Source: Arthrobacter sp. Leaf337
GTDB lineage: Bacteria > Actinomycetota > Actinomycetes > Actinomycetales > Micrococcaceae
Length of the DNA: 64,000 nucleotides
Assembly (NCBI RefSeq): GCF_001423745.1
Contig: NZ_LMPC01000006.1
Coordinates: 36,951-100,950, forward strand
Reading direction: 5' to 3'
Positions 10,505 to 25,701 of the stretch are shown here, in pieces; the first letter of the stretch is position 1, and each line of letters starts with the position of its first letter. Position numbers and translations under genes: made by a program. The notes beneath the pieces are model-generated. The model did no database searches, was not told where the DNA came from, and saw only the letters and a list, made by a program, of their open reading frames with translations.

Positions 10505-11371
10505 ATGTCGAACTACCACTTGGCCGTCACCACCGGCCTGGCCTCCGTGGAGGAACTGTCCGCACGGTTCGAGGTGACGGCCTCCACCATCCGCCGCGAC
10601 CTGGCGCTGCTGAACGGGCAGGGCCGGCTGGCCCGCACCTACGGCGGCGCGATGGCATTGGGCGCGCACCCGGAGGCGTCGCTGCGGCAGCGCACGGGTG
10701 AGGCGTTTGAGCAGAAGCACGCGATCGCCCGCTGGGCGGCGTCCGTGATCCGGCCCGGGGAGAACATCCTGCTCGACGCCGGCTCCACCGTGGGTGCCCT
10801 GGCGCACGAGCTGCGCGGCTTCGAGAAGCTGTCCGTGACGACGCCTGGCATCAACACCATGCAGGAGCTGGCGGATTCGGAGGGCATCGAGGTGGACTGC
10901 CTGGGCGGCCGGCTGCGGAGCCTTTCGCAAAGTTTTGTGGGACCGACCATGCAGGAGCTGGCGGATTCGGAGGGCATCGAGGTGGACTGCCTGGGCGGCC
11001 GGCTGCGGAGCCTTTCGCAAAGTTTTGTGGGACCGCTGGCCGAGGCGGCGCTGGAGCGGATGAGCTTTGACCGCGTGTTCCTGGGCGCCGACGCCGTCAC
11101 CGCCGAGGACGGCATCTGCGAGGCCGACCACGCCCAGACCCGACTCAAGGAACTCATGGCGCGGCGGGGGCGGTCCGTCTATGTTCTCGCTGACTCGCCC
11201 AAACTCGGCCTACGGCCTTTTCATGCGTGGGCGCGGCTGGCGTTGCCGTGGACCCTGGTGACGGACGACGGAGCCGACCCCGGGCAGGTGCGGAAGTTTC
11301 GGGATGCTGGGGTTGCGGTTGAGGTGACTGCGGTTGGGGTGAGCATTCCGGTCAGCTCGGGTCTACCCTGA
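10505..11371 (+). CDS. DeoR/GlpR-family regulator with 30-residue internal duplication
   Basis: 288 aa. The helix-turn-helix region is ASVEELSARFEVTASTIRRD, followed by the effector domain (ILLDAGSTVGALAHEL, FLGADAV, VLADSPKLG). Two oddities are visible. The first helix is shorter than usual, with only about ten residues before LASVEEL. A 90-bp unit is perfectly repeated in tandem and in frame (10856-10945 and 10946-11035), giving two copies of a 30-residue block that starts [10 protein letters not shown]. It may be a damaged or chimeric paralogue. Gene order suggests a link to ribose or nucleoside catabolism. Confidence 0.8.
   Translation: MSNYHLAVTTGLASVEELSARFEVTASTIRRDLALLNGQGRLARTYGGAMALGAHPEASLRQRTGEAFEQKHAIARWAASVIRPGENILLDAGSTVGALAHELRGFEKLSVTTPGINTMQELADSEGIEVDCLGGRLRSLSQSFVGPTMQELADSEGIEVDCLGGRLRSLSQSFVGPLAEAALERMSFDRVFLGADAVTAEDGICEADHAQTRLKELMARRGRSVYVLADSPKLGLRPFHAWARLALPWTLVTDDGADPGQVRKFRDAGVAVEVTAVGVSIPVSSGLP
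10856..11035 (+). repeat. Perfect 2 x 90-bp tandem duplication inside the DeoR gene
   Basis: Unit 1 is 10856-10945 and unit 2 is 10946-11035, identical base for base and multiples of three. One unit also matches the window-start paralogue. Perfect identity in a high-GC coding region indicates a very recent event or an assembly artefact. Confidence 0.95.
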
Positions 11372-12704: not shown

Positions 12705-12811
12705 AATAACATCCGTCTGGGAAGTTTGAGCCTTACCCAACCGCGTTTGGGGGCTCTGTTATGCGGCCCGCAACGATGCCCGGGTGCAGTGGTGAGTCTC
12801 AAGGGGAAGAC

Positions 12812-13387
12812 ATGCTGGAACTGAAACGCATCTACTGGAGCCGCCAGGTTCTGCGATTGGCTTATGCGGCTGTGATTTTGTGGTTAGGCGCCTCCGTAGT
12901 CCTGGCGCTCATGCCTAAGACCAACCGAGCGGCCGGCCCGGTGGCCTCGTCGGCCGCCGAGGTACTCCGCGGAATGTTCGACGACGTCCTGGCAGCGCTC
13001 ATGGCACCGGGCCTTTTTGTTATTGTCCTGACAATTACAGCGGCCATCATCGGCGCTCGCGACGTCCGACGCCGCGATCCGGTCCGTCGCTTCACGCGCC
13101 AACAGCGCCGCGATGGCATGGCGCGTGCTGACGGCCAATGTGAGATGGAAGTGGGGTTCCGCCGGCGTTGTTCCCGGCCCGCCGAGCACGGCGACCATTT
13201 CTACCCCTGGTCCAAAGGCGGCTCCACGAGCCTGCAGAATTTCGTCGCCGCCTGCGCGAGGTGCAACCGCGCGAAGAGCGCCAGGATCCCCTCGCCTGGC
13301 CAGCAGGAAAGGATGGAACGACGACGGCGGGAGTACGTCACGCAAGAACGTTCCGTCAGCGTCGGTGAACGGCAGCCGCTCCCCTAG
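12812..13387 (+). CDS. Membrane-anchored HNH endonuclease
   Basis: 191 aa from ATG 12812 (AGGGGA ribosome site). Two predicted membrane segments lie near residues 12-35 and 60-85. A basic linker follows, then a compact HNH domain: C-x4-5-C pair (CEMEVGFRRRC), HGDHFYPWSKGG and CARCNRAKSAR, with zinc cysteines and the His metal site visible. The nuclease domain is probably cytosolic if both termini are inside. Target unknown. It borders the accessory island. Confidence 0.8.
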   Translation: MLELKRIYWSRQVLRLAYAAVILWLGASVVLALMPKTNRAAGPVASSAAEVLRGMFDDVLAALMAPGLFVIVLTITAAIIGARDVRRRDPVRRFTRQQRRDGMARADGQCEMEVGFRRRCSRPAEHGDHFYPWSKGGSTSLQNFVAACARCNRAKSARIPSPGQQERMERRRREYVTQERSVSVGERQPLP

Positions 13388-13535: not shown

Positions 13536-15266
13536 TTAGGAACCATCCCCCCGAGGAATGAATTTGCGCAGGTATTCGCGGAGTTCTTTATCATGCACGT
13601 AGACGTACGTCCCATTCATGCCCCTCGTCATTAAGACGGCGTAGATATTGGTGATGTATCTGAGCAGGTCATTGTCGGTGTACACCAACCCCAGCTTGGG
13701 ATTGTTCTCCTTACCTTTCTTGTCGTGGTAGCCAACTCGATTAACAACGATAGACTGAGTCCCCGGATCAAAGCGAAGATCAGGCCCGATAATGACGCCT
13801 GCATAGTTTAGATCGTATCCCTGGACTGTATGAATAGAGCCAACCTCCTCTACCGAATTAGTGGAATTAATCCAATCAGTTTGAGTCTTGTTCCAGCGAA
13901 GACGATATCCGTCGATTTCGATGTCAAAAGCATTGGGATCGGTTTTCGTCCTCCATGGCCAAGCAAAGCCTGCGACAAGTCGCGCTAGCTGCACTTCTGA
14001 TTCTCGCCTACGTATGGCGTCGTGCATATCCCTGACATTATCAAAGAATCTAAAATCGTAATTATCAACGGGCGCTTGAACCGGAGGCTTTGATGACAAA
14101 ATTCCACGAATATACTTTATGTAATCCGTTCCGCCCTGGACGCGCATCTGCGAATGCAAACGATAATACTTTTTCTCAGCTTGCGAAGTTAATATGAGGG
14201 AATGAACCAACTCCCTCGGCAGGTCCGCGGGCCTAACGCTCTGTTCGGCATCCACCAGCAAGATCTGGTGCTTGCTGCTCTCACGAACCCAGTCCAGCTG
14301 AGTGATTGAAAGGTCATCTATGCCAAATAAGGCTTCGGTGATCTCGCGATATTTCTTGTTCTGAGGACCGGAGGGCTGGTTTGCGCGTTGGCTAAGCCTG
14401 TGCGCCTCGTCCACTATCAGCAGATCGTAGGGGTCTTCAGAGGGTGAAAGGTCAAACGGGCTCAGGACCATGTCGGGCTGGAGAGAAGGCGTCTTATTGA
14501 AAACCTTTTTGATGGTTGAACGTAACGACTGCTGCGGGACGACTAGGCCAATTTTAAGATCGGCAATGAGATCACGATTTCCTTCTACAAAGTAGTCCGC
14601 AAAAATTGAATCACTATCAAAGTTTTCACCTTCTTGAGAAAGCTGAATGTCTCTCAGCAGTTTCATTAGGTATACTGCAATGATTGTTTTCCCGGTGCCA
14701 GGGTCGCCCTGAATGACGCTTGTACTTGGTTCTCTACGCTCAACATCGTCGAGAAGACCGTCCAAAATGTCTCCAACAGCGCCCGCCTGATCGTGATTAA
14801 GAGCCTTAAATGGTGAAAACTTAAAGAGATCACTGTTTTCAATTTCTGGAATTGAGCGTTCAAACATTCCTTCTGCGCGCAGTTCGTCAAATATTTGGTT
14901 GAAAGAGCTTGTGTACTTATCTCGGTCGTAGTAGTCCGAGTCGCTGATCCCCGCATTTCCATTCAGCACCTGATAGCGGCCCTCGCCAGCGAAGAGCCTA
15001 ATCAGGAATGACTCCAAGTCCAGGCAGGCGGATTTGTGAAAAGTATCATCTATGACAAGGTGCATTCTGTGCAAGCCGCTCTTTTCAGGCGATTTCAAAT
15101 GCTGCCTCATGCGAGAAGATACGCTTCTCGACTCACCTACATACACGTCTCTTGAGTCATTTAGCGTGTATACGACCGGCCAGTTAGTGAAGCGATCGCC
15201 ACTGCGACCCAATAGCTCAATGTCTTGAGGCGAAAAACTCCGTCGTTCAATCCTAAAGCTCGTCAT
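13536..15266 (-). CDS. GIY-YIG nuclease fused to DUF2075 superfamily-1 helicase
   Basis: 576 aa from ATG 15266 (GGAG eight bases upstream). Residues 32-90 form a GIY-YIG-like domain: VYTL, YVGES, Arg53 and the LESFLIRLF segment carrying the expected catalytic Glu. The helicase core has Walker A GDPGTGKT (187-194), Walker B LLIVDEAHRL, a SIHTVQGYDLNYAGV motif and the C-terminal NIYAVLMTRG motif of DUF2075. It overlaps the MazG-like gene upstream by 14 bp, so the two form one translation-coupled unit. Base composition is clearly AT-richer than flanking genes, suggesting transfer. Probable role: nucleic-acid surveillance or phage defence (inferred). Confidence 0.85.
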   Translation of the reverse strand: MTSFRIERRSFSPQDIELLGRSGDRFTNWPVVYTLNDSRDVYVGESRSVSSRMRQHLKSPEKSGLHRMHLVIDDTFHKSACLDLESFLIRLFAGEGRYQVLNGNAGISDSDYYDRDKYTSSFNQIFDELRAEGMFERSIPEIENSDLFKFSPFKALNHDQAGAVGDILDGLLDDVERREPSTSVIQGDPGTGKTIIAVYLMKLLRDIQLSQEGENFDSDSIFADYFVEGNRDLIADLKIGLVVPQQSLRSTIKKVFNKTPSLQPDMVLSPFDLSPSEDPYDLLIVDEAHRLSQRANQPSGPQNKKYREITEALFGIDDLSITQLDWVRESSKHQILLVDAEQSVRPADLPRELVHSLILTSQAEKKYYRLHSQMRVQGGTDYIKYIRGILSSKPPVQAPVDNYDFRFFDNVRDMHDAIRRRESEVQLARLVAGFAWPWRTKTDPNAFDIEIDGYRLRWNKTQTDWINSTNSVEEVGSIHTVQGYDLNYAGVIIGPDLRFDPGTQSIVVNRVGYHDKKGKENNPKLGLVYTDNDLLRYITNIYAVLMTRGMNGTYVYVHDKELREYLRKFIPRGDGS

Positions 15267-15573
15267 ACTTCGAACTCCGCCCACGGGCCTTTTCAACCGG
15301 GTATTTCGTCCGAGTCTCTTTGAGTTTCTCGGTCACGATCGTGTCAGGGTCGAGGCCTAGACGATCGGCCAAGAGGTAAGCATAAGTTAAGACGTCGGCA
15401 AGTTCCGACTGCACCCGCAGTGGATCCGCATCCTCACTCCACTGGAAGCATTCCAAGAGTTCGGCCGCCTCAATTGAGATGGATTTTGCTAAGTTGGAGC
15501 TGCTGTGGAACTGACCCCACTCCCGCTCCGAAACGAACTCGCGAAGCAACTGCACCACAGTTTTGTCAGACAT
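15253..15573 (-). CDS. MazG-like nucleotide pyrophosphohydrolase
   Basis: 106 aa from ATG 15573 (GGTGA five bases upstream). The all-alpha NTP pyrophosphohydrolase signature is present: EAAELLECFQW (helix with ExxE) then ELADVLTYAYLLADRLGLD (ExxD), which bind magnesium. This family hydrolyses (d)NTPs to NMP plus PPi. Pairing with a GIY-YIG/DUF2075 helicase suggests control of nucleotide pools or of a nucleotide signal during infection. A longer upstream frame exists but has poor coding character. Confidence 0.85.
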   Translation of the reverse strand: MSDKTVVQLLREFVSEREWGQFHSSSNLAKSISIEAAELLECFQWSEDADPLRVQSELADVLTYAYLLADRLGLDPDTIVTEKLKETRTKYPVEKARGRSSKYDEL

Positions 15574-15833
15574 TATTTCACCGTAACATGCAGCCAAATG
15601 GAACATGTGCGAACAACCATTTTTGTTCAATCGCTGATAGCAATCCCTAGGGAAAAGTGGCGATCCTCGGTGATTTCCAGCACGGGGAGTCGGTGCCGTA
15701 CCGTCACAACGAGTAGCTTCCAAAGCGCGAAGTGCCATTCCCCGGCTTCGAGCTCTGTGGAATTTGAGAACTTCTGAAGTCCTTTGTGGCCGCTTAGAAG
15801 ACGAAATGAAATTGGCCTGGCTTCAGTACAGGA
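15574..15833. other. Spacer between MazG-like gene and the PLD-helicase gene
   Basis: 260 bp with no supported gene. It must hold the promoter of the MazG-helicase pair, and no clear terminator was seen. Confidence 0.35.
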
Positions 15834-18800
15834 CTACTGCGCCACCGCAGCAGCCGTCGCGTACACGTCAGCTGGCATCGGCCGGTGCAGCTTCCAGGTA
15901 ATCGCAATCGGCTTCTCCCCCGTGTGCTGCACGTAATCCACCTGTCCAAGGCACGTGTAGGGAACAGTCAAGCCGGTCTCGTCGTCCGCCGAATCCCTAG
16001 TGAAGATCAGAATGTTCGAACCATGCGAACCCCGGTCTAGATACCGCCTCCCTGTCGGACTGCCCGGTGACGTCGCATTCTGTGATTCCCAATGGAACAG
16101 TTCCGGGCTGATGGCGTAGTCCTTGTACATCGTGGTCGCCGAGTGCTTCTTGTCATCCTTGTTGAGGGTGACGAAGAAGGCGTCGGTGGATGTTGACTGG
16201 CACCAGGCCACGCCCTCGCGATGCTGCACGTTCTTGCCCAGCTCCAAGGATCCATACTGAAGAGCGGCCAGAACTTCTTCTCGCCGATAAGTCGCGTGCG
16301 ACAGCAGAGGAACGTGCTGCAGCCCCGTTCCGAGCCCCTTGGCAGCGTGCTTGGATGCTACGACTCCAAGCTTCACGATCTGGCGGATCTCGCTGCACAC
16401 AAACTGATATCCGCGCAGATAGTCCAGGCCGGCGTCGTACGTCTGAAAACCGCCGCCGTCGTCCCACAGCGTGAAGAACAGCATCCGGGCGAAAGTCTGC
16501 TCGCGCATTCCGAGCTCCGCGTAGCGGGGCGCACCGGGGCCGACCAGCATCGAGTAGGCCTCGGCGCGTTCCAGGTCGTCCACATGGATGAGAGCAGCCA
16601 TGCGGCCCAGGAGCTTCTTCTCGTCGGCATCCGAGAGCTCCTCGATCCTCCCGCTAAGAGCCGCCTCCAGCGGCGAGAACCCTTCAATCAACCCCGCCTG
16701 TCGAAGGTAGCCGGTCCAGGAATCCCTGGTCGAACGATAGATCGACTTCACGTCGTTCCCGGACTGCTCCAGATAGGCCTCCAGCTCCGTCTCGGCGTAC
16801 GAAGCGATGTCCCGGACCAGCTCCCGCCGGTTTAGCAACTGTGCTCTGATGTTCTTCAGCACCACCTTTTGCGCCACCCGGTCCAGCACGATCTGCGAGC
16901 CCGAGGGCAGATACGGGAACTCATCCTCGACCGCTTTCTCCAACTCCTTGCGCCCGTAGCCGGTGAGTGCCCGGTACCGCAGATCGAAGCGGAATTCTCG
17001 GCGCTGCTGGCCGATGAAGTCCATGACCGTCAGCACTGCCTTGCCCTCGGCACGGCGCAGGCCGCGCCCCAGCTGCTGGAGGAAGATCGTGGCGCTCTGC
17101 GTGGGTCGGAGCAGCAGGATGGTGTCCACCTGCGGCAGGTCCAGGCCTTCGTTGAAGAGGTCGACAGCGAAGATGCAGTTGATCTCCCGAGTGCGGAGCC
17201 GATCCAGCGCCGCAGCGCGGTCGGCGTCGTCGGTGCTCCCGTCGACGGCAACCGAGGCGATGCCGGCGCGGTTGAAGACGTCGGCCATGTAGTGGGCGTG
17301 CTGGACCGAGACGCAGAAGCCGAGGGCGCGCATCTGTTCGGTGCTGGTGACCTTGTCGCGCAGTTCGCGGATCACCTTGGCGGCGCGGGCGTCGTTGCCG
17401 GTGTAGAGGTTGTTCAGCTGCGCGGTGTCATAATTGCCGCGCTTCCATTCCAGCTGGCTCAGGTCGACGTCGTCCGAGACGCCGAAGTAGTGGAACGGCA
17501 CCAGGAGGTCGGCGTCCAGGGCGTCCCAGAGGCGCAGTTCGCTGGCGGTGCGACCGTCGAAGAACTGCTTGGCGACGTCGACGCCGTCGCCGCGTTCCGG
17601 CGTCGCGGTCAGTCCGAGGAGCTGCTGCGGCTGCAGGTGGTCCAGCAGCCGGCGGTAGGTGGGCGCCATGGCGTGGTGGAATTCATCGATGACCACGACG
17701 TCGAAGAAGTCCGCCTCCAGCTGTTCGATGCCCAGTGAGGACAACGACTGGACAGAAGCGAAGATGTGCTTCCAACGCTGAGGTTTGTGCTCTCCGACGT
17801 AGAGTTCGCCGAAGGCGCCGTCCTGCATGACGTCACGGTAGGTGCGCATCGCCTGTTTCAGGATTTCCTGCCGGTGGGCGACGAAGAGCAGCTTCAGATC
17901 GCGGCCGGCAGCCTCGCACAGGCGCTTGTAGTCCAGGGCAGAAATGACGGTCTTGCCGGTGCCGGTGGCCGCGACCACGAGGTTGTGGTCGAAGCCCTTG
18001 AGACGCTCGGCTTCCAAATCTTCGAGCATCTCCTCCTGGTGGAGGAACGGCTGGACTTCGAGCCCGGTGGCCGCGCCCGGGACTGCCGTGCGCCGGCCGC
18101 CGTTGCGCTCTAATGCTGCGTCCAGCTTTTCGCCGTCGCGGTCCGGGTCGTAGCTTTGGAAGGCTCGCTGCTCCCAGTAGCTGTCAAAGGTGACCTCGAA
18201 CTTCTGCAGCAGCGTAGGTGTGCCGACCGAGCTGAGCCGTACGTTCCACTCGAGGCCGTCCAGCAGGGCCGCCTGGCTGAGGTTGGAACTGCCGACGTAG
18301 GCGGTGTCAAAGCCGGAATTACGGCGGAACAACCAGGCCTTGGCGTGCAGGCGCGTTGCCTGGGTTTCGTAGTTGATCTTCACTTCGGCGCCATAGCGGT
18401 TGACGAGCTCGTCGATGGCGCGGCGTTCAGTGGCGCCCATGTACGTGGTAGTAAGGACTCTCAGCCGGGCTCCCCGCTCCTTGAGTTCTTCAAGGGCCGG
18501 CTGGAGAAGGCGGAGTCCGGTCCAGCGGACGAAAGCACAGAGCAAGTCGACCGTGTTGGCAGATTCAATCTCGGCCCGAAGCTCGGCTGCGAGGTTTGGA
18601 TCGTCCTTGCTGTTGGTGAGTAGCGCGGAATCACTAAGTTTGGTTGTGGGGCGGCGCAGTTGTCGGCGCTTTAGGGTATCCGGACGGTGGAGTGACTGGA
18701 GTTGGGTGGGGCCGGGTGCGATTCGGTCGCTATGATTCAGCTCTTGTAAAAGACGGTTTGCTAGAGCGACCCTGTCTGCTGGCTTGGCTGTGGCGAGGGC

Positions 18801-19046
18801 CCTGCGAACGGCGTCGGCGACGTAGCGAGAGAGGATGTCTGGGGTGTCTTCATCTTCTATGTCCTGGAAGATCGGCCGCGCTTCCAAGTCGGTGGTCAGT
18901 AGATTGCCAAGTACATCGGTGTTGAGAAGTTCATACAATCCTTCGGGCAGCCGATCCGCTGCTCCTCCCCCAATGAATTTAGTCACTGCGTCAGGGTATG
19001 GGGCAGAACCGACATCCGCCAGTCTTGGCCCAGAATGTCCGGGCAT
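15834..19046 (-). CDS. PLD-type nuclease / DEAD-like helicase / DUF3427 protein
   Basis: About 1070 aa. An N-terminal region is followed by a phospholipase-D-like domain with HAKAWLFRR and GSSNLSQAALL (one HxK half-site). Then comes a superfamily-2 helicase with Walker A ATGTGKT, VVIDEFHHA, GLTATPERGDG, and motif VI QQLGRGLRRAEGK. The C-terminal 450 residues match the DUF3427 region of such helicases. The start is uncertain: ATG 19046 is the first ATG in a plausible place but has no good ribosome site. GC content is near chromosomal, unlike its neighbours. Likely DNA repair or defence; mechanism unknown. Confidence 0.8.
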   Translation of the reverse strand: MPGHSGPRLADVGSAPYPDAVTKFIGGGAADRLPEGLYELLNTDVLGNLLTTDLEARPIFQDIEDEDTPDILSRYVADAVRRALATAKPADRVALANRLLQELNHSDRIAPGPTQLQSLHRPDTLKRRQLRRPTTKLSDSALLTNSKDDPNLAAELRAEIESANTVDLLCAFVRWTGLRLLQPALEELKERGARLRVLTTTYMGATERRAIDELVNRYGAEVKINYETQATRLHAKAWLFRRNSGFDTAYVGSSNLSQAALLDGLEWNVRLSSVGTPTLLQKFEVTFDSYWEQRAFQSYDPDRDGEKLDAALERNGGRRTAVPGAATGLEVQPFLHQEEMLEDLEAERLKGFDHNLVVAATGTGKTVISALDYKRLCEAAGRDLKLLFVAHRQEILKQAMRTYRDVMQDGAFGELYVGEHKPQRWKHIFASVQSLSSLGIEQLEADFFDVVVIDEFHHAMAPTYRRLLDHLQPQQLLGLTATPERGDGVDVAKQFFDGRTASELRLWDALDADLLVPFHYFGVSDDVDLSQLEWKRGNYDTAQLNNLYTGNDARAAKVIRELRDKVTSTEQMRALGFCVSVQHAHYMADVFNRAGIASVAVDGSTDDADRAAALDRLRTREINCIFAVDLFNEGLDLPQVDTILLLRPTQSATIFLQQLGRGLRRAEGKAVLTVMDFIGQQRREFRFDLRYRALTGYGRKELEKAVEDEFPYLPSGSQIVLDRVAQKVVLKNIRAQLLNRRELVRDIASYAETELEAYLEQSGNDVKSIYRSTRDSWTGYLRQAGLIEGFSPLEAALSGRIEELSDADEKKLLGRMAALIHVDDLERAEAYSMLVGPGAPRYAELGMREQTFARMLFFTLWDDGGGFQTYDAGLDYLRGYQFVCSEIRQIVKLGVVASKHAAKGLGTGLQHVPLLSHATYRREEVLAALQYGSLELGKNVQHREGVAWCQSTSTDAFFVTLNKDDKKHSATTMYKDYAISPELFHWESQNATSPGSPTGRRYLDRGSHGSNILIFTRDSADDETGLTVPYTCLGQVDYVQHTGEKPIAITWKLHRPMPADVYATAAAVAQ

Positions 19047-19354
19047 GTCTATATGGTCGTCGACGGTGGGCGCTCTGAGCTGCTGAGCGCGGTCACCGCG
19101 AGGGGCGCACAGGTTCGCCACCTTCCTCCAAGGGCCGACGTTAGTGCGACCTACCACCGTCGCGGACCACCCTTATCCCGAACGAGTGTCTAGACCGAGA
19201 GGACGTCGCGCTAGTTGAACCGGCGACCTGTCGTCTCCTGCGAAATCCGTCCCCCAAAGCACCACCGCCACGACCGGGCACTAGTCCGCGGGGCCATCCA
19301 GAAGCTCGTTCGCATCGGAAACGGCAACCGAACACGGCACGAGGTAATAGGATT
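19047..19354. other. 308-bp gap without a recognised gene
   Basis: No convincing coding frame. A 17-base piece at 19214-19230 resembles the variable-loop/T-arm half of a tRNA on the minus strand but has no partner stem. Confidence 0.4.
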
Positions 19355-20311
19355 TCAGCAAAGAAGGGCGTACTCGACCTCGAATAGATGCACGCGTGAT
19401 AGACCACTTGACGTTTCAGTGGCGTAGCTCGCCGAACCCGGAAACAAGATGGAAGTAGGCGTGTCGGCGCATTCCGCTAAGTAATATAGAGCAAACCCTA
19501 AGACCTGGGTCTTTGGTCCCACAGGGCTGAGGTAGATATTGCGCGTGGGACTACCGGAGCGAATCCTCGTAATCTGTTGACTGAGAATCTCAGCGGTGGT
19601 GTAAGGATCATCCGCTGGGGCGTATAGTGCCGTCTTGTGGCTGCCATAGTTGTGTATTGATTCTCTCGCCTCGGCAACTCTGAGCTGACTCTCTTGATAC
19701 ATATGTGGCTGAAGACCTGGCAACCCAAACAAGACAAAATGTTCAGCCGAACGCTGGTATTCCGCCACTGCTCTAATTAGACGAGAGTCGTATCCAGCCC
19801 CAATAATGAGTGCATCAGTTGCATCAAGATTAGGCTCATGAATTCCCTCGAAGCCAGGGATCGATTCAACGGGATAAAGCGCACCGGTTGAGAAGGTCGT
19901 GCGGAATCCTGCCGAATAGGTAAATGGATCCGAATAGATGTAGGTAACGGTTTCGAACCCAAGTTCACGGAATAGAAATGCCATCGTAAGAACGAACGGA
20001 CGGAGAAGTCCCGTGATATCCACTCCAACCGTGATGGTTCGGTCTTCTTCAGACAAACCAATGTCCCGTATGATTCGACGCAAGGCATCCAGCGGTATTT
20101 CGTCTTTAGCCACTCGAAAGACCGCACAGTCGTCACCTTCTAAGGGGTTCAGATCACCGTACTCAGGATGAATGATCCAGATCTTCCTGGCCGCACGGAC
20201 GTCAGTAAAAACCCTGTTTACGCGTTCTGATTCATTGTATGCAGACAGAAATACATCAAAATTCACCGCGCTACTAATCTCATTCGGCAAAAGCACGCGA
20301 CGCCGTAGCAT
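19355..20311 (-). CDS. Rossmann-like protein, third gene of the PRTase-ATPase operon
   Basis: 318 aa from ATG 20311, 7 bp after the ATPase stop. A longer frame beginning with TTG inside the ATPase gene is less likely. I do not recognise a named family. The pattern of hydrophobic strands with small loops (FDVFLSAYNESERVNRVF, IWIIHPEYGD, ITVGVDITGLLRP, DALIIGAGYDSRLI) suggests an alpha/beta Rossmann-like nucleotide-binding or sensor fold. There is no membrane segment. It may be the sensor or effector of the operon. AT-rich composition matches the two upstream genes. Confidence 0.65.
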   Translation of the reverse strand: MLRRRVLLPNEISSAVNFDVFLSAYNESERVNRVFTDVRAARKIWIIHPEYGDLNPLEGDDCAVFRVAKDEIPLDALRRIIRDIGLSEEDRTITVGVDITGLLRPFVLTMAFLFRELGFETVTYIYSDPFTYSAGFRTTFSTGALYPVESIPGFEGIHEPNLDATDALIIGAGYDSRLIRAVAEYQRSAEHFVLFGLPGLQPHMYQESQLRVAEARESIHNYGSHKTALYAPADDPYTTAEILSQQITRIRSGSPTRNIYLSPVGPKTQVLGFALYYLAECADTPTSILFPGSASYATETSSGLSRVHLFEVEYALLC

Positions 20312-20318
20312 CGAATAG

Positions 20319-22307
20319 TCAGTCGAGGTCAAAAAGCGCCTCCATTGTGTGCGAGTAAGCGCCAAAGGGGGCAATTAATGATGCGAGTCGCTTTTCAACT
20401 ATTGTTGAATAGTTTTCTTCAGTTGAGCCGACTGCAAAGAATGCATCAATTTCGTCTGACTTGAAAGCGATAGTGCCCTTTCTTCGCGTGGGAAGTCCAT
20501 AAAGCGGCGCGATCATTGGGTGAAGCTGGTATTTCTTATGCCGCGAGCCAGAGTCTCTCGCTATACGCCCACCCGGTACTTCCAAAAGGAGCCCGTGGGT
20601 CGTGGCTGCCTCCAGACAGTCGCGAGCCGAACGGGATACGTTATGAAGGTCTGTAGAGAAAGCAACAGCTCCTGGCTCAGCAGGTTTGTCCGAGTACCTA
20701 TACCTGTTCATGAATGTCCCAAGCCTTCGTATTGCGATCTCACACTGGTCCCCCATCGGACCCACGGGCAGGGAGTCGACGCTGTACCAGTTTGCTGCGT
20801 CAAGTACCGCTTTGGTTTGAACGTCGATGGAGATGGCTTGACCTGCCTGGAAGGGTCGCCCCCCAGAAAAACTGTCCCGCCGGTACACGTGCTTCAAGAC
20901 AACTAGAAAACTTCGAGGAAGGTACGTCGACATCTCGATGAACTGTTCAAATCCGTAATAGGGGAGCGCCTCCGAGGCTTCGGCGTGGACCTGAGCAATC
21001 ATGTCGGACCGCCAACGCTTGAGATACTCCTCAGACTCCTTTGAGGATCTCCCAGACAGAAGATCCCGCCTTAGCCTTATCGCACCCGCGAGCGTCGTCG
21101 AGTCCAACTTCCGAGCCCGGCTCCAATCTTGGTAGAACCGCAAGATTGACAGCTTCTCAACCAAAGGTGAATTGGCGCAGGAGATTTCCGCGGAGAATTC
21201 ATGCGCCAACTCACTATTGCCTGTGGCCTTCGTGACGCTATTCACTAGCCGCGCCAGATGAGGACGTTCTTCTGGGGAGTACTTCTTCAATATCGAAAGC
21301 AGGGGACGATGCGCTAGCGCTTCAGCATCCCACTTCTCGAACGCCTTTTGAAGCCTTGCTTCATCCCAATTTTGGTTCTCCAAATTGAGGCGACCCTTCA
21401 CGAGTGAAACGCAAAAATTAGAGTATGCCGCGTTACGAGCCCGGTAGGCCTCCTCCAATTCAATCCACTCGTACTCGCTGCCCCTTTTATTTTCCTCGTC
21501 GGCGCTCAACGTTAACTGTGTGCGAACACCCCAGGCGCGCGATCCGACAAGGAACGTTACGGGGAGTTGCTTCTCACGGATGAGCGTGTTTACGTACATC
21601 TGTTGATCAATATTGAGGTTCTCATATTCGTCTATCAAGAACGTAATGACCACATTCTCCAGGCCGGTCAGTGACTGAGATACCGCCCGGGCCACTCCGA
21701 AAATCATTTCGCCAGGATTTGAGGTAATTTCAACCTGAATTTCCCCCTTGACTGCAGCATTGTTAACCTGCACGTCGACGGATCTCCTCAACTTGGCAAC
21801 CAAGGCAAGCATGCCTGGAATATCAGTAACAGGCACCGAATTGGATAAAGTTGATCCTTCAATTACCTGAGATACCGCTCCGGAGAAGATTTGCTCGGCA
21901 TGCTTGTCCCAACACGCATCTCGAGATTGAATATCGGCAAGAACGTGCAGCAACTGCTCCGTCACCCATAGATCCATGTAGTAACTGAAGACGCCTTGCC
22001 ACACTTCCTTGCTGAGGCCTCGCCCGCTGAATCGACTCCCGCTGAGTCCGGAGCATCGGAAATAGACGCCCACATAACCGTCGGCCATGATCTGCTGGAG
22101 GACCGACGAGCCACGTTCGCGCTGAAGTGAGTAGGAAAGATGACGCATCAAATGTGTACGGCCACCACCCTTTCCTCCAACGAGAAACTGGGTCATAGGA
22201 CTCTTTGGGTTGGCAACGCTTCCGGTCGGCCAAGGAACGAACGTCTCAGCGATCTGCGCGTCGGTAAAGTCGACAGCCTTCGTTACTTCAAAGGGGTTTG
22301 ATTCCAT
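20319..22307 (-). CDS. P-loop ATPase with C-terminal winged helix (ORC/CDC6-like)
   Basis: 662 aa, ATG 22307, only 2 bp after the PRTase stop. N-terminal P-loop FLVGGKGGGRTHLMRHLSY (residues 41-59), where the usual Walker A lysine is Arg50. Walker B VVITFLIDEYENL is near residue 225, with a sensor-1-like VTFLVGSRAWG after it. A helical middle follows. The C-terminal part looks like a winged helix (CLEAATTHGLLLEVPGG then HKKYQLHPMIAPLYGLP). This AAA plus winged-helix layout resembles ORC/CDC6-type conflict ATPases. Its likely role is the switch between sensor and effector (inferred). Confidence 0.75.
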   Translation of the reverse strand: MESNPFEVTKAVDFTDAQIAETFVPWPTGSVANPKSPMTQFLVGGKGGGRTHLMRHLSYSLQRERGSSVLQQIMADGYVGVYFRCSGLSGSRFSGRGLSKEVWQGVFSYYMDLWVTEQLLHVLADIQSRDACWDKHAEQIFSGAVSQVIEGSTLSNSVPVTDIPGMLALVAKLRRSVDVQVNNAAVKGEIQVEITSNPGEMIFGVARAVSQSLTGLENVVITFLIDEYENLNIDQQMYVNTLIREKQLPVTFLVGSRAWGVRTQLTLSADEENKRGSEYEWIELEEAYRARNAAYSNFCVSLVKGRLNLENQNWDEARLQKAFEKWDAEALAHRPLLSILKKYSPEERPHLARLVNSVTKATGNSELAHEFSAEISCANSPLVEKLSILRFYQDWSRARKLDSTTLAGAIRLRRDLLSGRSSKESEEYLKRWRSDMIAQVHAEASEALPYYGFEQFIEMSTYLPRSFLVVLKHVYRRDSFSGGRPFQAGQAISIDVQTKAVLDAANWYSVDSLPVGPMGDQCEIAIRRLGTFMNRYRYSDKPAEPGAVAFSTDLHNVSRSARDCLEAATTHGLLLEVPGGRIARDSGSRHKKYQLHPMIAPLYGLPTRRKGTIAFKSDEIDAFFAVGSTEENYSTIVEKRLASLIAPFGAYSHTMEALFDLD

Positions 22308-22309
22308 GT

Positions 22310-23269
22310 TTATACCTTCTGATAGCGCGGAAAGAGCGCCTGCCAGTGCGGTCCAAGCTCATCCATCCAAAAAATTGGCAAGGTGTTGTTCGGTATATTG
22401 TGGTGAAAGCCGAGTAACATCTGGCCGTTCCTGTATCCCAGCCCATGCCCCGTTAGGACTTTCTCACCATAATGTCTAGCGAATGTCTCCAAATCATCAA
22501 GGGAAATATCATTCGCTAGATTCGCCAGTAAGCGCGAGGTTCCAGAGAAAGCGGACTCGGACTCATCTAAGATATGGACTGCATTCACCTCGTCAAAAAG
22601 ACCATTTCGCGCAACATCCAATCCTCCTTGTTTCGCGAAAAGAACATAATAATGAATTGAAAGGTCGCGGCCCTCATGGTTCGCCGCTTCACGATATTTC
22701 GATAGTATTTTTTCGGAGTACTCAAGCGCCTGTTTGCCAGAACCTAGAACGTCGTCAATGAATATCAGTCGATCAAGGTCAGGAATATCAATTGCGGGAA
22801 CATCTTGTCTTGGTGCTGCCCGCAGAACTTCATGCTGATGCACAAACAAGTTTTTCGGAAGCCTGTTTTCTTGACGAAAATAGTAAAGCAGATGGGCGCC
22901 GCTTTCAGAGGGGTTGCCCATTCCAAGAAACCGAGTGCGAGCCCGGGCCAATTGAAAGGCTGCGTTTACGTCATTGGCATCTGTTGTTCCGCCCCTGTCG
23001 GTGCGAATTGACTGAATTAGTGGATACCGGAAAAGATCACGGTATAGTGAGCGAAGCATCACTCGCAGCTCGCGATCCCCAAAATAAGTAAAGTGTGCAA
23101 GAAGGACTATTGCAAAAATTCGCTCACGTTGGACAGAAAAAACATCTCCGCTGAAATTCGCTAACCAGGCTTCAATGTCGGGGCGATGGATACGGTTTTC
23201 CCAAACACCTTCACTCAAAATCATGATTCGGTCTAGAAGGTCGTCCTCAAAGCTATTGTGGCCGGTCAT
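22310..23269 (-). CDS. Phosphoribosyltransferase-like protein heading a three-gene operon
   Basis: 319 aa from ATG 23269 (GGGGGA nine bases upstream). The classical type I PRTase PRPP loop is clear at residues 168-180: RLIFIDDVLGSGKQAL, with the DD pair at 172-173. An N-terminal helical region (to about 110) is unlike purine or pyrimidine PRTases. The C-terminal 100 residues include a GHGLGYRNGQMLLGFHHNIP hood-like motif. There is no housekeeping salvage context, since the next genes are an ATPase and an unknown. It may use PRPP to modify a nucleotide, base or target during a conflict response. This is inference. Confidence 0.75.
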   Translation of the reverse strand: MTGHNSFEDDLLDRIMILSEGVWENRIHRPDIEAWLANFSGDVFSVQRERIFAIVLLAHFTYFGDRELRVMLRSLYRDLFRYPLIQSIRTDRGGTTDANDVNAAFQLARARTRFLGMGNPSESGAHLLYYFRQENRLPKNLFVHQHEVLRAAPRQDVPAIDIPDLDRLIFIDDVLGSGKQALEYSEKILSKYREAANHEGRDLSIHYYVLFAKQGGLDVARNGLFDEVNAVHILDESESAFSGTSRLLANLANDISLDDLETFARHYGEKVLTGHGLGYRNGQMLLGFHHNIPNNTLPIFWMDELGPHWQALFPRYQKV

Positions 23270-23420
23270 ACTTCATCGTCCCCCGTGCAAATGTTCTCAA
23301 TGCCCAACGTCCCTCAAAAAAGCTTCATGCCCGGCTACTGACGCGAGACCGCGCTCATGAAGCAATGCGTGAACATGTTCGCAGTCTTATGGCAGCATCA
23401 CGCTCTCGAACGTTCGCCGA

Positions 23421-23757
23421 CTATGGAACATCGTTGACCCAGGGAATGTCCGCTCGGTTTGTTCGGATGCGAAGTCCCAATCGACTCATCGTATCTCCCC
23501 ATGACCCGGGTTTTCCCAATCGCGCCGAGCGTGTCATCGCATAAGTTGTATCCGATGCCCATGGCCCCCGTAGAGGTTGCTCGATGGGGAAAAACGCCGG
23601 TGCTGCCAGCACCACGGTCCTGACGGCTCCGATCCAGAGCACGGGAAGGCGCCCAATCCGGTGGCCGAAAGACCCGGTCAGCTGGATGCACAACGCCATG
23701 GCCACAAGGACTGGAGTGGTCAGCAGCGTCCCCTCGATCGCGTCATACCCTTTTGGT
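23421..23757 (-). pseudogene. Decayed fragment of an MHS-family transporter gene
   Basis: The minus strand reads LCIQLTGSFGHRIGRLPVLW followed by IGAVRTVVLAAPAF. This matches the MHS carrier at 59496-61010 (LCIPLTGHLSDRIGRRPVLW then IGAVSTVVLAIPAF). Downstream it jumps, with a frame change, to GAMGIGYNLCDDTLGAIG (GAMGIAYNFAVAIFGG in the intact gene), so about 55 codons are missing. No start, no stop, no full domain. Confidence 0.75.
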
Positions 23758-23828
23758 GCTCACTTTGTAAGTGAGCGGATAGGACGTGGAGGGCTACGCC
23801 ACGGTGTTGACGGCCGCAACAAAGCGGA

Positions 23829-23977
23829 CGACGGCGGCGCGGACCGTGGGCAGGTGGCCCGCCTACTCGCCGGGCCAAGCGGCCGCTGATCCTCGCCGAC
23901 CGCGGTGCGCACCTCGCCGGTGCCAGCCCGGAGCTCCGCAAACTCGCCGACCGGCTGGGCGCGCTAACCGCCGGAAC
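23829..23977 (+). pseudogene. Decayed fragment of a ThDP-enzyme gene
   Basis: About 150 bp is highly similar to the middle of the intact ThDP enzyme at roughly 29691-29840 (AQVARLLAGAKRPLILAGRG region) in the same orientation. At least one base is lost near 23876, which breaks the frame, and there are scattered substitutions. It directly abuts the protease gene's upstream region. Confidence 0.8.
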
Positions 23978-24045
23978 AAGTGTCGCTTGTATTCCGGCGA
24001 CGGCGTCGGTATAAAACGGGACCGGATATCAGATACGGTCAACAG

Positions 24046-24759
24046 GTGAACTTCGATAACACCGCAATCCCGCTTTCGGCGATCCGGCCCAACGGCGACA
24101 ATGCAATGGTCGGTACTGGCTTCATTGTTCAGATTGGCGGGGAGACCTACTTGACCACGGTTGCGCACCTGGCAACGGGCGCCACTGACCAATTCGATGA
24201 TTGGCCCAATTGGTCAAGTGAAATAAACATCCAAGACGGGGAAAAGAATATTTTGGCACAAGTCCCGCTTTTCGATGGTGACCGTGGCGAGGGTCGAGTT
24301 CCACTTTTCAAGTATGGCCGCACTACGAGTGAACCCCGGCAGCTTCTTGACCTAATCCTGGTTCCCTTGTCGGCTGATTATCTGCACGCGGCCAGCTCCA
24401 AGGTGTTCCTGCTCCCACCCCCTATTCCAGCCGCTGCCCAGGTAGGAGATAAGGCCGTCATCGTTGGCTGTCGCAACTGGCCCCGAATTACCACTGAAAG
24501 CTATAGCCTCGCAGGTTCTTCGTCTGATCAGGTGGTGATTCATATCGATCCCCCTTCTCGAGTGGGAGAGTCCGGTGGTCCTCTACTCACCCCGGCTGGC
24601 GGTTTGCTAGGCATCAACTATGGCGACGGCAACGCCTATGCACCAGGGATGGGCCTTGTCTTGAATGCTGCCTGTATCGATTGGCTCCATACGGCCAAGA
24701 ACGGCTACATCGAAGGAATTAATTACGGGAATCATCAACCATCCTGCGTAACCCCCTGA
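24046..24759 (+). CDS. Trypsin-like serine protease, cytoplasmic
   Basis: 237 aa from GTG 24046; an earlier in-frame GTG (23980) would run back into the ThDP-gene fragment. Chymotrypsin-fold triad: His41 in YLTTVAHLA, Asp102 in LDLILVPL, Ser176 in RVGESGGPLL. GTGFIVQIGG is the usual first-barrel start. There is no signal peptide or membrane segment, so it acts inside the cell. That suits a regulatory or suicide protease more than a secreted enzyme. Moderate GC, inside the accessory island. Its partner, if any, is not obvious. Confidence 0.75.
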   Translation: MNFDNTAIPLSAIRPNGDNAMVGTGFIVQIGGETYLTTVAHLATGATDQFDDWPNWSSEINIQDGEKNILAQVPLFDGDRGEGRVPLFKYGRTTSEPRQLLDLILVPLSADYLHAASSKVFLLPPPIPAAAQVGDKAVIVGCRNWPRITTESYSLAGSSSDQVVIHIDPPSRVGESGGPLLTPAGGLLGINYGDGNAYAPGMGLVLNAACIDWLHTAKNGYIEGINYGNHQPSCVTP

Positions 24760-24924
24760 GGGGAATCTCAGTACATTCTGGAAAGATTGAGACCGTTGGC
24801 GTTTCAGGCAACCATGGCGGGGGCGCGTTAAGTGACGAAGGTTCAAACTGCGGCGAGTAGATATTCGGTGCCTCGCCCCTTCGGGACGCGATGGTCAATT
24901 TGTCGCCGCCGGAGTCCTTCAAGT

Positions 24925-25701
24925 TTATTTCAATTCAAAGGGTGGAACCCCAAGATCTGCCATCCTCGCGCCAATGTCATTGAGCGGTTCCTCAAAATAA
25001 TGAGTAAGCCCTGAGATTACTCCGAAAGCCCCCGCAGCGACCCAAAGCAGCGATGGGAGAAGGACATCATTTCGCGTCTCAGTGGGGCGGGGCTCATGAT
25101 ACAGACTCATGCCAAAGGCATCAGCATTCACAGCGAGATATGGGGCGGCGCTCGACATAGTCGGATGACTGACTTGGGTTTCGCGCAGCCAATACTGGTA
25201 GATCCCGGCAAACTCGCCAGGATTAGTTTCGACAACGTTAGCTAGGGCCTTATAGGTGTCTAGATATTTATATTCATCGCTTGCCTCGGCCATCAATTCC
25301 TGGATATCTCGAATTTGGGCCGGAGCTAGCGCCCATCCTCTTTCCGCTGCCTCCATCGTTTTCTCAAGGCTCCATTTCTGCATCCGAAGAAGCGCTTCCA
25401 CAAAAACGTGCGGCTCAAGAGCGGCACCCCAGCTAAGCCTAATCGCGTGCTCTATAACAGATCGGACGAGAGGGCTCGACTCAACTCCGTAGTTGGCCCC
25501 TTCGAGCAGGAGCACAGCGCTAGAGGATCTTATTATTCTCATGAGTTATCCCCACGCAACGGCTACTGATCGCGCCTCCGCCTGGTCTTTTCGGGTCCAG
25601 TCGCCGACTGGCCGCTGAGGCGGGGATGGTGTATTTTCCACCAGTTCCATCAAGTCCTCAGTCACACTCGCCCAGCTGTCCTGCGCTTTATGGCCAGTCA
25701 T
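24925..25701 (-). pseudogene. DUF5677-like gene split by an in-frame TAA
   Basis: Two frames lie in register. A 51-codon piece from ATG 25701 (MTGHKAQDSWASVTEDLMEL) ends in TAA at 25546. After a single CTC codon a 205-codon piece begins with ATG 25542. Joined they give about 258 residues, a plausible full protein with a helical segment like SSPLVRSVIEHAIRLSW of DUF5677-type proteins. Either a nonsense mutation or two separate products; a GGGGA seven bases before the second ATG could allow reinitiation. Function unknown. Confidence 0.65.

Follow-up and report, generated by a model that had tools for sequence, protein, structure and literature searches.

According to the accessible part of PMC3874153, the restriction enzyme SauUSI cleaves DNA containing 5-methylcytosine (5mC) or 5-hydroxymethylcytosine (5hmC), and its single polypeptide suffices. 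Human DCTPP1 (RS21-C6), a pyrophosphatase, is reported to prefer deoxycytidine triphosphate (dCTP) and 5-methyl-dCTP (PMC4491611, seen in part). Here we describe two overlapping genes of Arthrobacter sp. Leaf337, which encode a MazG-like pyrophosphohydrolase of the DCTPP1 type and a fusion of a GIY-YIG nuclease with a superfamily 1 (SF1) helicase of Schlafen group 3. They were found in a stretch of 64,000 nucleotides (positions 36,951 to 100,950 of contig NZ_LMPC01000006.1), called the window in the following. A role of the pair in defence is likely, judging from its sequence and that of its relatives. Our leading proposal, which is tentative, is that of a two-gene, translationally coupled phage-defence unit in which the MazG would remove dCTP, in particular modified dCTP, and the nuclease-helicase would attack phage nucleic acid.

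The larger gene of the pair shares with the human Schlafen proteins SLFN11 and SLFN14 the group-3 helicase domain (PF09848, presumably the former DUF2075), and its predicted structure resembles the SLFN11 helicase, but it has a GIY-YIG region where Schlafens have an RNase core. The MazG-like protein is a sequence relative of DCTPP1 and retains seven of eight of its pocket residues; unlike DCTPP1, it mostly has Leu, Ile or Val at the position of H38, and it is coupled to a nuclease-helicase. SauUSI itself has a likely counterpart in the gene next to the pair, with the same layout of PLD nuclease, ResIII helicase and C-terminal DUF3427, whereas a MazG and a nuclease-helicase are not part of SauUSI as described in the accessible text (PMC3874153). 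Among the families of PADLOC-DB 2.0.0 (2023, from which systems described later are absent), the MazG gene matched none at E 0.01; the nuclease-helicase gave weak, local matches to AbiO, PDC-S14 and Nhi (best of each E 5e-9 to 4e-7), which span 97-146 of 586 residues. MazG is a predicted, unvalidated defence domain among the DefensePredictor candidates of a 2026 paper, but GIY-YIG, DUF2075 and Schlafen are absent from its main text as far as this was accessible (PMC13092281). In the open-access literature, we found no description of a MazG and GIY-YIG/helicase pair, and none of DUF2075 in phage defence, of a bacterial Schlafen protein with GIY-YIG, or of SauUSI with Nudix.

The gene pair and its distribution

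The open reading frames (ORFs) and profile matches (Table 1) bear out the two genes of the original prediction. The MazG-like ORF starts with the ATG at 15573 and ends with the stop codon at 15253-15255, and that of the nuclease-helicase runs from the ATG at 15266 to its stop at 13536, with Walker A at residues G187-K193 and the DEAH motif at residues 286-289. The predicted overlap of 14 bp is exact. Among 98 non-redundant pair loci with MazG, the same overlap is possible, with an in-frame start codon, in 72 (ATG in 71), an overlap of 4 bp is possible in 7, and neither in the remaining 19. Because so many loci allow the 14-bp overlap in the right frame, it is evidently not a matter of chance, and it suggests translational coupling of the two genes. 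The pair had also been called AT-rich and unlike its flanks, which holds true (48.2% G + C in the nuclease-helicase gene and 53.9% in the MazG gene; flanks 65.3% and 66.6%). The AT-rich composition, however, reaches far beyond the pair, across an island of about 12 kb that extends to about 25.7 kb (13536-25700, 55.2% G + C). This extent and the adjacent SauUSI-like gene had been missed.

Table 1. Features of the pair and of the adjoining part of the low-GC island (positions in the window)
Feature	Position	Strand	Size or evidence
MazG-like all-alpha NTP pyrophosphohydrolase, DCTPP1/RS21-C6 type	15253..15573	-	106 aa; PF12643 E 8e-22
GIY-YIG nuclease and Schlafen-group-3 SF1 helicase fusion	13536..15266	-	576 aa; PF09848 'SLFN-g3_helicase' E 4e-68
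GIY-YIG domain, residues ~29-104	14955..15182	-	conserved residues; PF01541 in homologues L006 and L116
SF1 helicase domain, residues ~183-559	13590..14720	-	PF09848; UvrD and SLFN11 structural matches
Coding overlap of mazG and nuclease-helicase gene, 14 bp	15253..15266	-	direct reading of the sequence
SauUSI-like type IV restriction enzyme	15834..19157	-	PADLOC mREase_IV 1120 bits; PLDc_2, ResIII, Helicase_C, DUF3427
CARF6, ORC-CDC6-like ATPase and PRTase-CE module	19355..23269	-	family matches

Walker A, DEAH and the GIY-YIG residues Y33, Y42, G44, R52, H56 and E85 of the nuclease-helicase do not vary among 49 aligned sequences, of which at least 90% also have N102; we take the GIY-YIG residues to fill the catalytic roles of the conserved Y, Y/G, R, H, E and N of GIY-YIG domains. 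The Pfam profile PF01541 (GIY-YIG) gave no match to the window protein; it matched at the same place in homologues from a plasmid (L006, E 4e-6) and a viral contig (L116, E 1e-6). An AlphaFold2 model with a mean predicted local distance difference test score (pLDDT) of 89.4 had its top structural match in UvrD (Z 21.2, root-mean-square deviation 3.9, 316 residues aligned) and further matches in the human SLFN11 helicase (Z 18.8, root-mean-square deviation 3.8, 274 residues aligned) and SLFN14 (Z 17.9); this comparison bears on the helicase part and barely probes the GIY-YIG part. A sequence search of the PDB with the nuclease-helicase returned nothing at E 0.01, and at the same cut-off Pfam gave no match to the Schlafen RNase core domain.

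The MazG-like protein has sequence relatives in the PDB (E ~1e-15) that include the pyrophosphatase 4qgp and RS21-C6, or dCTP pyrophosphatase 1 (2a3q, 6sqw). Of the pocket and metal-site residues of DCTPP1, listed according to the accessible part of PMC4491611, W47, E63, E66, W73, E95, D98 and Y102 are each found in 96-98 of the 98 MazGs of the pair loci. Signal clearance, one of the two roles proposed for this protein in the original prediction, found no support; nucleotide clearance appears to be the better guess in view of the DCTPP1 type of this MazG, because the proteins of that type studied so far act preferentially on dCTP and 5-methyl-dCTP. A lone MazG-like gene that is, by eye, closer still to human DCTPP1 was seen in another locus (L034:9885-10274), about 4.6 kb from an ORF that looks GmrS-like; no GIY-YIG/helicase was found there.

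In the family of the window (Micrococcaceae), 149 genomes were sampled, with PF09848 matches above 200 bits regarded as strong, those below 30 bits (mostly other helicases by frame length) ignored, and PF12643 accepted from 44 bits upwards. Strong PF09848 matches occurred in 27 genomes, PF12643 matches in 27 and both in 26, which corresponds to PF12643 in 26 of the 27 genomes with strong PF09848 and in 1 of the 122 others (Fisher 9e-27). The exceptions are one genome with the helicase only (G122) and one with the MazG only (G038). The two genes are adjacent in 25 of the 26 genomes that carry both; in the remaining genome (G082), the nuclease gene is split between two contigs, with MazG and the codons for the first ~88 residues at the end of one and the remainder at the end of the other.

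The pair is not confined to close relatives. In a GTDB-species collection (one genome per species), at least 589 relatives were present among the 595 pattern matches listed. MazG lies directly upstream of the nuclease-helicase in 74 of the best 80 loci, which were picked by similarity to the nuclease and do not give an unbiased estimate. Elsewhere among the 80, MazG is found 1.1 kb upstream (L071) or downstream (L090), and one locus ends at a contig edge (L107). The hosts are mostly Actinomycetes, and the others are titled Clostridiales, Lachnospiraceae, Bacilli, Firestonebacteria, Nomurabacteria and Fimbriimonadales; binning errors are possible for the latter because their records are titled as metagenome-assembled genomes or uncultured isolates. 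Relatives of the nuclease-helicase were also present in 40 plasmid records, of which six were fetched; MazG accompanied one of these six, on the plasmid of a Lactiplantibacillus isolate (L006). A scan of viral contigs confirmed a single relative among 21 pattern matches (L116), with the pair flanked by a GH25 lysin on one side and a phage integrase on the other, in reversed gene order and again with a 14-bp overlap; we infer that this contig is a prophage. By these counts the pair is conserved across distant taxa, and it has probably spread horizontally.

Defence genes around the pair

The neighbourhood was analysed in 106 non-redundant pair loci (7 of 113 were dropped as near-duplicates), with 8.5 kb available on both sides in 64 of them. 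SauUSI is the commonest specific neighbour, present in 13 loci and no more than 0.8 kb away in 11 of these. Its cluster listed 15 loci, of which 13 were counted because one member (L048) is without a DUF3427 match and another (L060) is a helicase with sigma-70 domains. DUF3427 was checked by profile in the window, in L006 and in the family genomes, and the other members were assigned by BLAST; contig ends truncate those of L088 and L108. The frame in L060 (L060:7231-9645), which combines ResIII/Helicase_C with sigma-70 regions 1.2, 2 and 4, is possibly a genuine odd fusion. SauUSI occurs near the pair in Actinomycetes, in contigs titled Clostridia and on the Lactiplantibacillus plasmid, and does so in several gene orders: upstream on the same strand in the window, L006, L020 and L077, downstream in L011, L052 and L089, and divergent in L070 and L095. 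The Clostridia-titled loci L108 and L109 show the order SauUSI-like helicase, Nudix, MazG and GIY-YIG/helicase, with other genes after Nudix in L109.

Co-localisation was also assessed by genome, both in the family and in a sample of the order outside the family (~361 genomes, a number inferred from the listed rows and possibly too high). In the order sample, the pair was scored by its MazG (a match of at least 54 bits) and not by the helicase, and 13 genomes with weaker MazG matches (39-52 bits) were left out. The distance between SauUSI and the pair is at most 6 kb in 5 of the 12 family genomes with both (0.06 expected), and at most 10 kb, by match coordinates, in 6 of 18 such genomes in the order sample (0.14 expected); the expectations assume random placement, and general clustering in defence islands would raise the counts too. 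In the order sample, SauUSI is present in 18 of 45 pair genomes and in 67 of ~316 others (p 0.008).

The next neighbours after SauUSI are Nudix (8 of the 106 loci), GmrSD (5) and C5 methyltransferases (4), and SRA-like neighbours also occur. The GmrSD and C5-methyltransferase clusters were checked with Pfam in one representative each, and the largest cluster (17 loci, ABC-type ATPases by eye) was set aside as a general superfamily. Some unrelated housekeeping clusters of a size similar to these are also found around the pair, and many pairs lie among ordinary genes. Enrichment in defence genes was nevertheless found: 192 PADLOC models were matched among 125 neighbour genes (of 188 that had been picked) as compared with 12 in the control set, which comprised 114 genes and covered 18 of 20 random regions (L175 and L176 were unused). 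These counts are models matched and not proteins, were obtained after removal of the SauUSI and Nudix clusters, and refer to genes called in both sets by a longest-ORF rule that admits false ORFs. Pfam matches among the neighbours include GmrSD_C (4), GmrSD_N (3) and Mrr_cat (2), and also housekeeping families such as ADH_zinc_N (3).

In the window, the SauUSI-like gene adjoins the MazG gene on the same strand. Its start is uncertain, with homologues aligning from residue 62 (~18974), and its DUF3427 was matched at profile positions 101-277 of 280. The gene is a putative 5mC- and 5hmC-cleaving enzyme by its likeness to SauUSI. The CARF6, ORC-CDC6-like and PRTase-CE genes that stand in a row beyond it, by their family names a defence module of the nucleotide-signalling type, are probably a separate system in the same island. 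The far end of the island contains an ORF for a trypsin-like peptidase (23980-24759) and one with a weak DUF5677 match below the cut-off (24925-25542). On the other side of the pair, an ORF with an HNH endonuclease domain (12761-13387) is convergent with it; in a close relative (L036), a look-alike of this ORF (by eye) also flanks the pair, and a HEPN/RES protein takes the place of SauUSI as the next larger gene upstream of MazG. Further out, a perfect tandem duplication of 90 bp (10856-11035, 2.0 copies, 100% match) lies in frame within the ORF of a DeoR-family regulator (10505-11371), to which it adds a duplicate of 30 residues.

Cytosine methylation and Nudix genes

Cleavage of 5mC DNA by the pair was tested as avoidance, by comparing the presence of C5 methyltransferases (PF00145) in carriers and non-carriers; the statistics ignore the relatedness of species, and the E-value limits differ between the family and order samples (1e-3 and 1e-8 for DUF3427, 1e-10 and 1e-20 for PF00145). 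Carriers of SauUSI avoid C5 methyltransferases both in the family (13/55 vs 45/94, p 0.005) and in the order outside it (20/85 vs 149/~276, p 9e-7). The avoidance extends to both DUF3427 subgroups, with a C5 methyltransferase in 14 of 55 genomes of the order sample for the subgroup with a short DUF3427, which includes the window gene (p 6e-4). Among pair carriers of the family no avoidance was found (11/26 vs 47/123, p 0.83). In the order sample, all genomes with the MazG proxy together showed weak avoidance (15/45, p 0.057; 19/58, p 0.022 with the 13 weaker MazG genomes added), which was gone once the SauUSI carriers were removed.

Where the DUF3427 of SauUSI is full, the gene has a partner of its own: a Nudix gene overlaps its start in 10 of the 10 family loci fetched (L011 and L117-L125, with the Nudix gene of L123 cut by a contig end), and an eleventh locus of this type (G054) lies outside the ten. 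In total, 40 of the 55 DUF3427 loci of the family were fetched, and 5 more came in through the pair loci or the window; the short-DUF3427 genes among them, which are of the window type, lacked any such widely conserved partner. In the PDB, the relatives of the L006 Nudix protein include mycobacterial MutT2 and the CTP pyrophosphohydrolase of E. coli. Such enzymes are reported to be active on 5-methyl-dCTP, and MutT2 also on canonical dNTPs (PMC10742078, PMC5389931, PMC3744803, each seen in part). None of the three Nudix proteins scanned reached a curated NCBIfam cut-off, and their substrate is therefore a guess.

Two further proteins beside Nudix genes (L071:7209-8114 and L072:8405-9373) have an N-terminal part that resembles SRA (PF02182 matched in L071 only, at E 0.0013, which is below the cut-off) and a C-terminal motif that, by eye, is PD-ExK-like; they are possibly another modification-dependent nuclease. 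A role of Nudix as the general companion of SRA-type enzymes was considered and dropped. The two genes are in operon order in L072 and convergent in L071, and the partnership is not shown to be general because no Nudix gene stands beside the two homologues among the 149 genomes (L177 and L178), of which a short stretch was examined.

Proposed function and rival explanations

The pair is a probable phage-defence unit because it is widely shared and is repeatedly found next to enzymes that cleave DNA with chemical modifications. In the proposed mechanism, MazG would act like DCTPP1 and hydrolyse dCTP, by preference 5-modified dCTP that is made or released during infection, while the GIY-YIG/SF1 helicase would travel along and cut the nucleic acid of the phage, most likely its DNA. 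The supply of dCTP, above all of its modified forms, would fall, and modified cytosine would thereby be kept out of the host chromosome; breakage of the phage genome would add to this, and the unit would thus work on two levels. In the company of SauUSI or of another modification-dependent enzyme, the unit and that enzyme would be complementary layers of defence. The original prediction, which is partly supported, would have been refuted if the pair were confined to close relatives or its surroundings showed no enrichment in defence genes, and both tests left it standing.

Several observations weigh against this proposal. No MazG was found near the nuclease-helicase in three of the best 80 loci (L053, L060 and L091), and divergent GIY-YIG/helicase proteins on Firmicutes plasmids (L002-L005 and L007) are likewise without MazG nearby. 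The position of His38, which is said to contact cytosine in DCTPP1 (PMC4491611, seen in part), is occupied in the 98 pair MazGs by L (73), I (19), V (4), F (1) or a gap (1), and the substrate specificity of these MazGs is not readable from sequence. SauUSI was not found within 8.5 kb in 93 of the 106 pair loci (64 of the 106 with full flanks), it is not associated with the pair among family genomes (12/26 pair genomes vs 43/123 others, p 0.37), and a C5 methyltransferase does occur close to the pair in 4 of the 106 loci. Genomes that carry the pair and not SauUSI show no avoidance of C5 methyltransferases either in the family (9/14 vs 49/135, p 0.049 in the opposite direction and one of several tests) or in the order (14/27 vs 155/~334, p 0.69). 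Because these carriers keep their C5 methyltransferases, unlike SauUSI carriers, the nuclease-helicase was rejected as a 5mC-dependent nuclease, and the pair is probably not a 5mC restriction enzyme. The same outcome lowers the standing of self-protection as a role of the pair when SauUSI is absent. The pair may act on other modifications or regardless of modification.

Two rivals are live, a role of MazG as sensor or gate and starvation for dCTP. As a sensor or gate, MazG would bind a phage-made or abnormal nucleotide and release or restrain a toxic nuclease-helicase, of which it would be the regulatory subunit or antidote. The conserved overlap suggests matched production of the two proteins, also with the reversed order in L116, and Kongming offers a precedent, in which a HAM1-type pyrophosphatase homologue reportedly senses dITP. 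However, MazG shows next to no variation in its catalytic-type residues, although a pure sensor could do without them, and relatives of the nuclease exist without MazG; we consider such a role possible rather than probable. Nucleotide-depleting defences are known, for example dCTP deaminase and dGTPase, and starvation for dCTP would add to these a MazG that degrades the canonical dCTP pool on infection, with the nuclease-helicase as its trigger or as a second blow. This agrees with the reported hydrolysis of canonical dCTP by DCTPP1 (PMC4491611, seen in part), but a constitutive dCTPase would need a control step, of which none is visible, and the type IV neighbours point to modified cytosine, which leaves starvation rather unlikely.

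An attack on RNA, in which the GIY-YIG domain would cut tRNA or mRNA and halt translation in the infected cell, would suit the Schlafen group of PF09848 and the high rank of the helicase domains of SLFN11 and SLFN14 in the structural comparison. Given that the top match is UvrD, a DNA helicase, and that Pfam gave no Schlafen RNase domain, we regard it as improbable. MazG and Nudix proteins are also known pool cleaners, and the pair could be a housekeeping combination of a DNA-repair nuclease-helicase with a cleaner of the nucleotide pool, without any defence unit; this is very improbable in view of the patchy occurrence within one family (26 of 149 genomes), the atypical G + C content, the copies on a viral contig and a plasmid, and the defence neighbours.

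Beyond the phage-defence unit that we favour, a wider and more doubtful idea is that pyrophosphohydrolases are built into restriction, Nudix with SauUSI and the DCTPP1-type MazG with the GIY-YIG/Schlafen helicase, in order to destroy modified dCTP. If true, such built-in pool cleaning would starve phages with modified DNA and keep salvaged modified cytosine, which would otherwise lead to self-cleavage, out of the host chromosome.

If the proposed defence role is true, it would explain what a widespread Schlafen-type helicase protein and the bacterial DCTPP1-type enzymes do, and would link dNTP housecleaning to restriction. It would also bear on the question of how self-attack is avoided, during the recycling of modified nucleotides, in cells whose enzymes cut DNA with modified cytosine. 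Because the helicase family is common to the human antiviral Schlafen proteins, the pair may also illuminate the origin of a part of human immunity.

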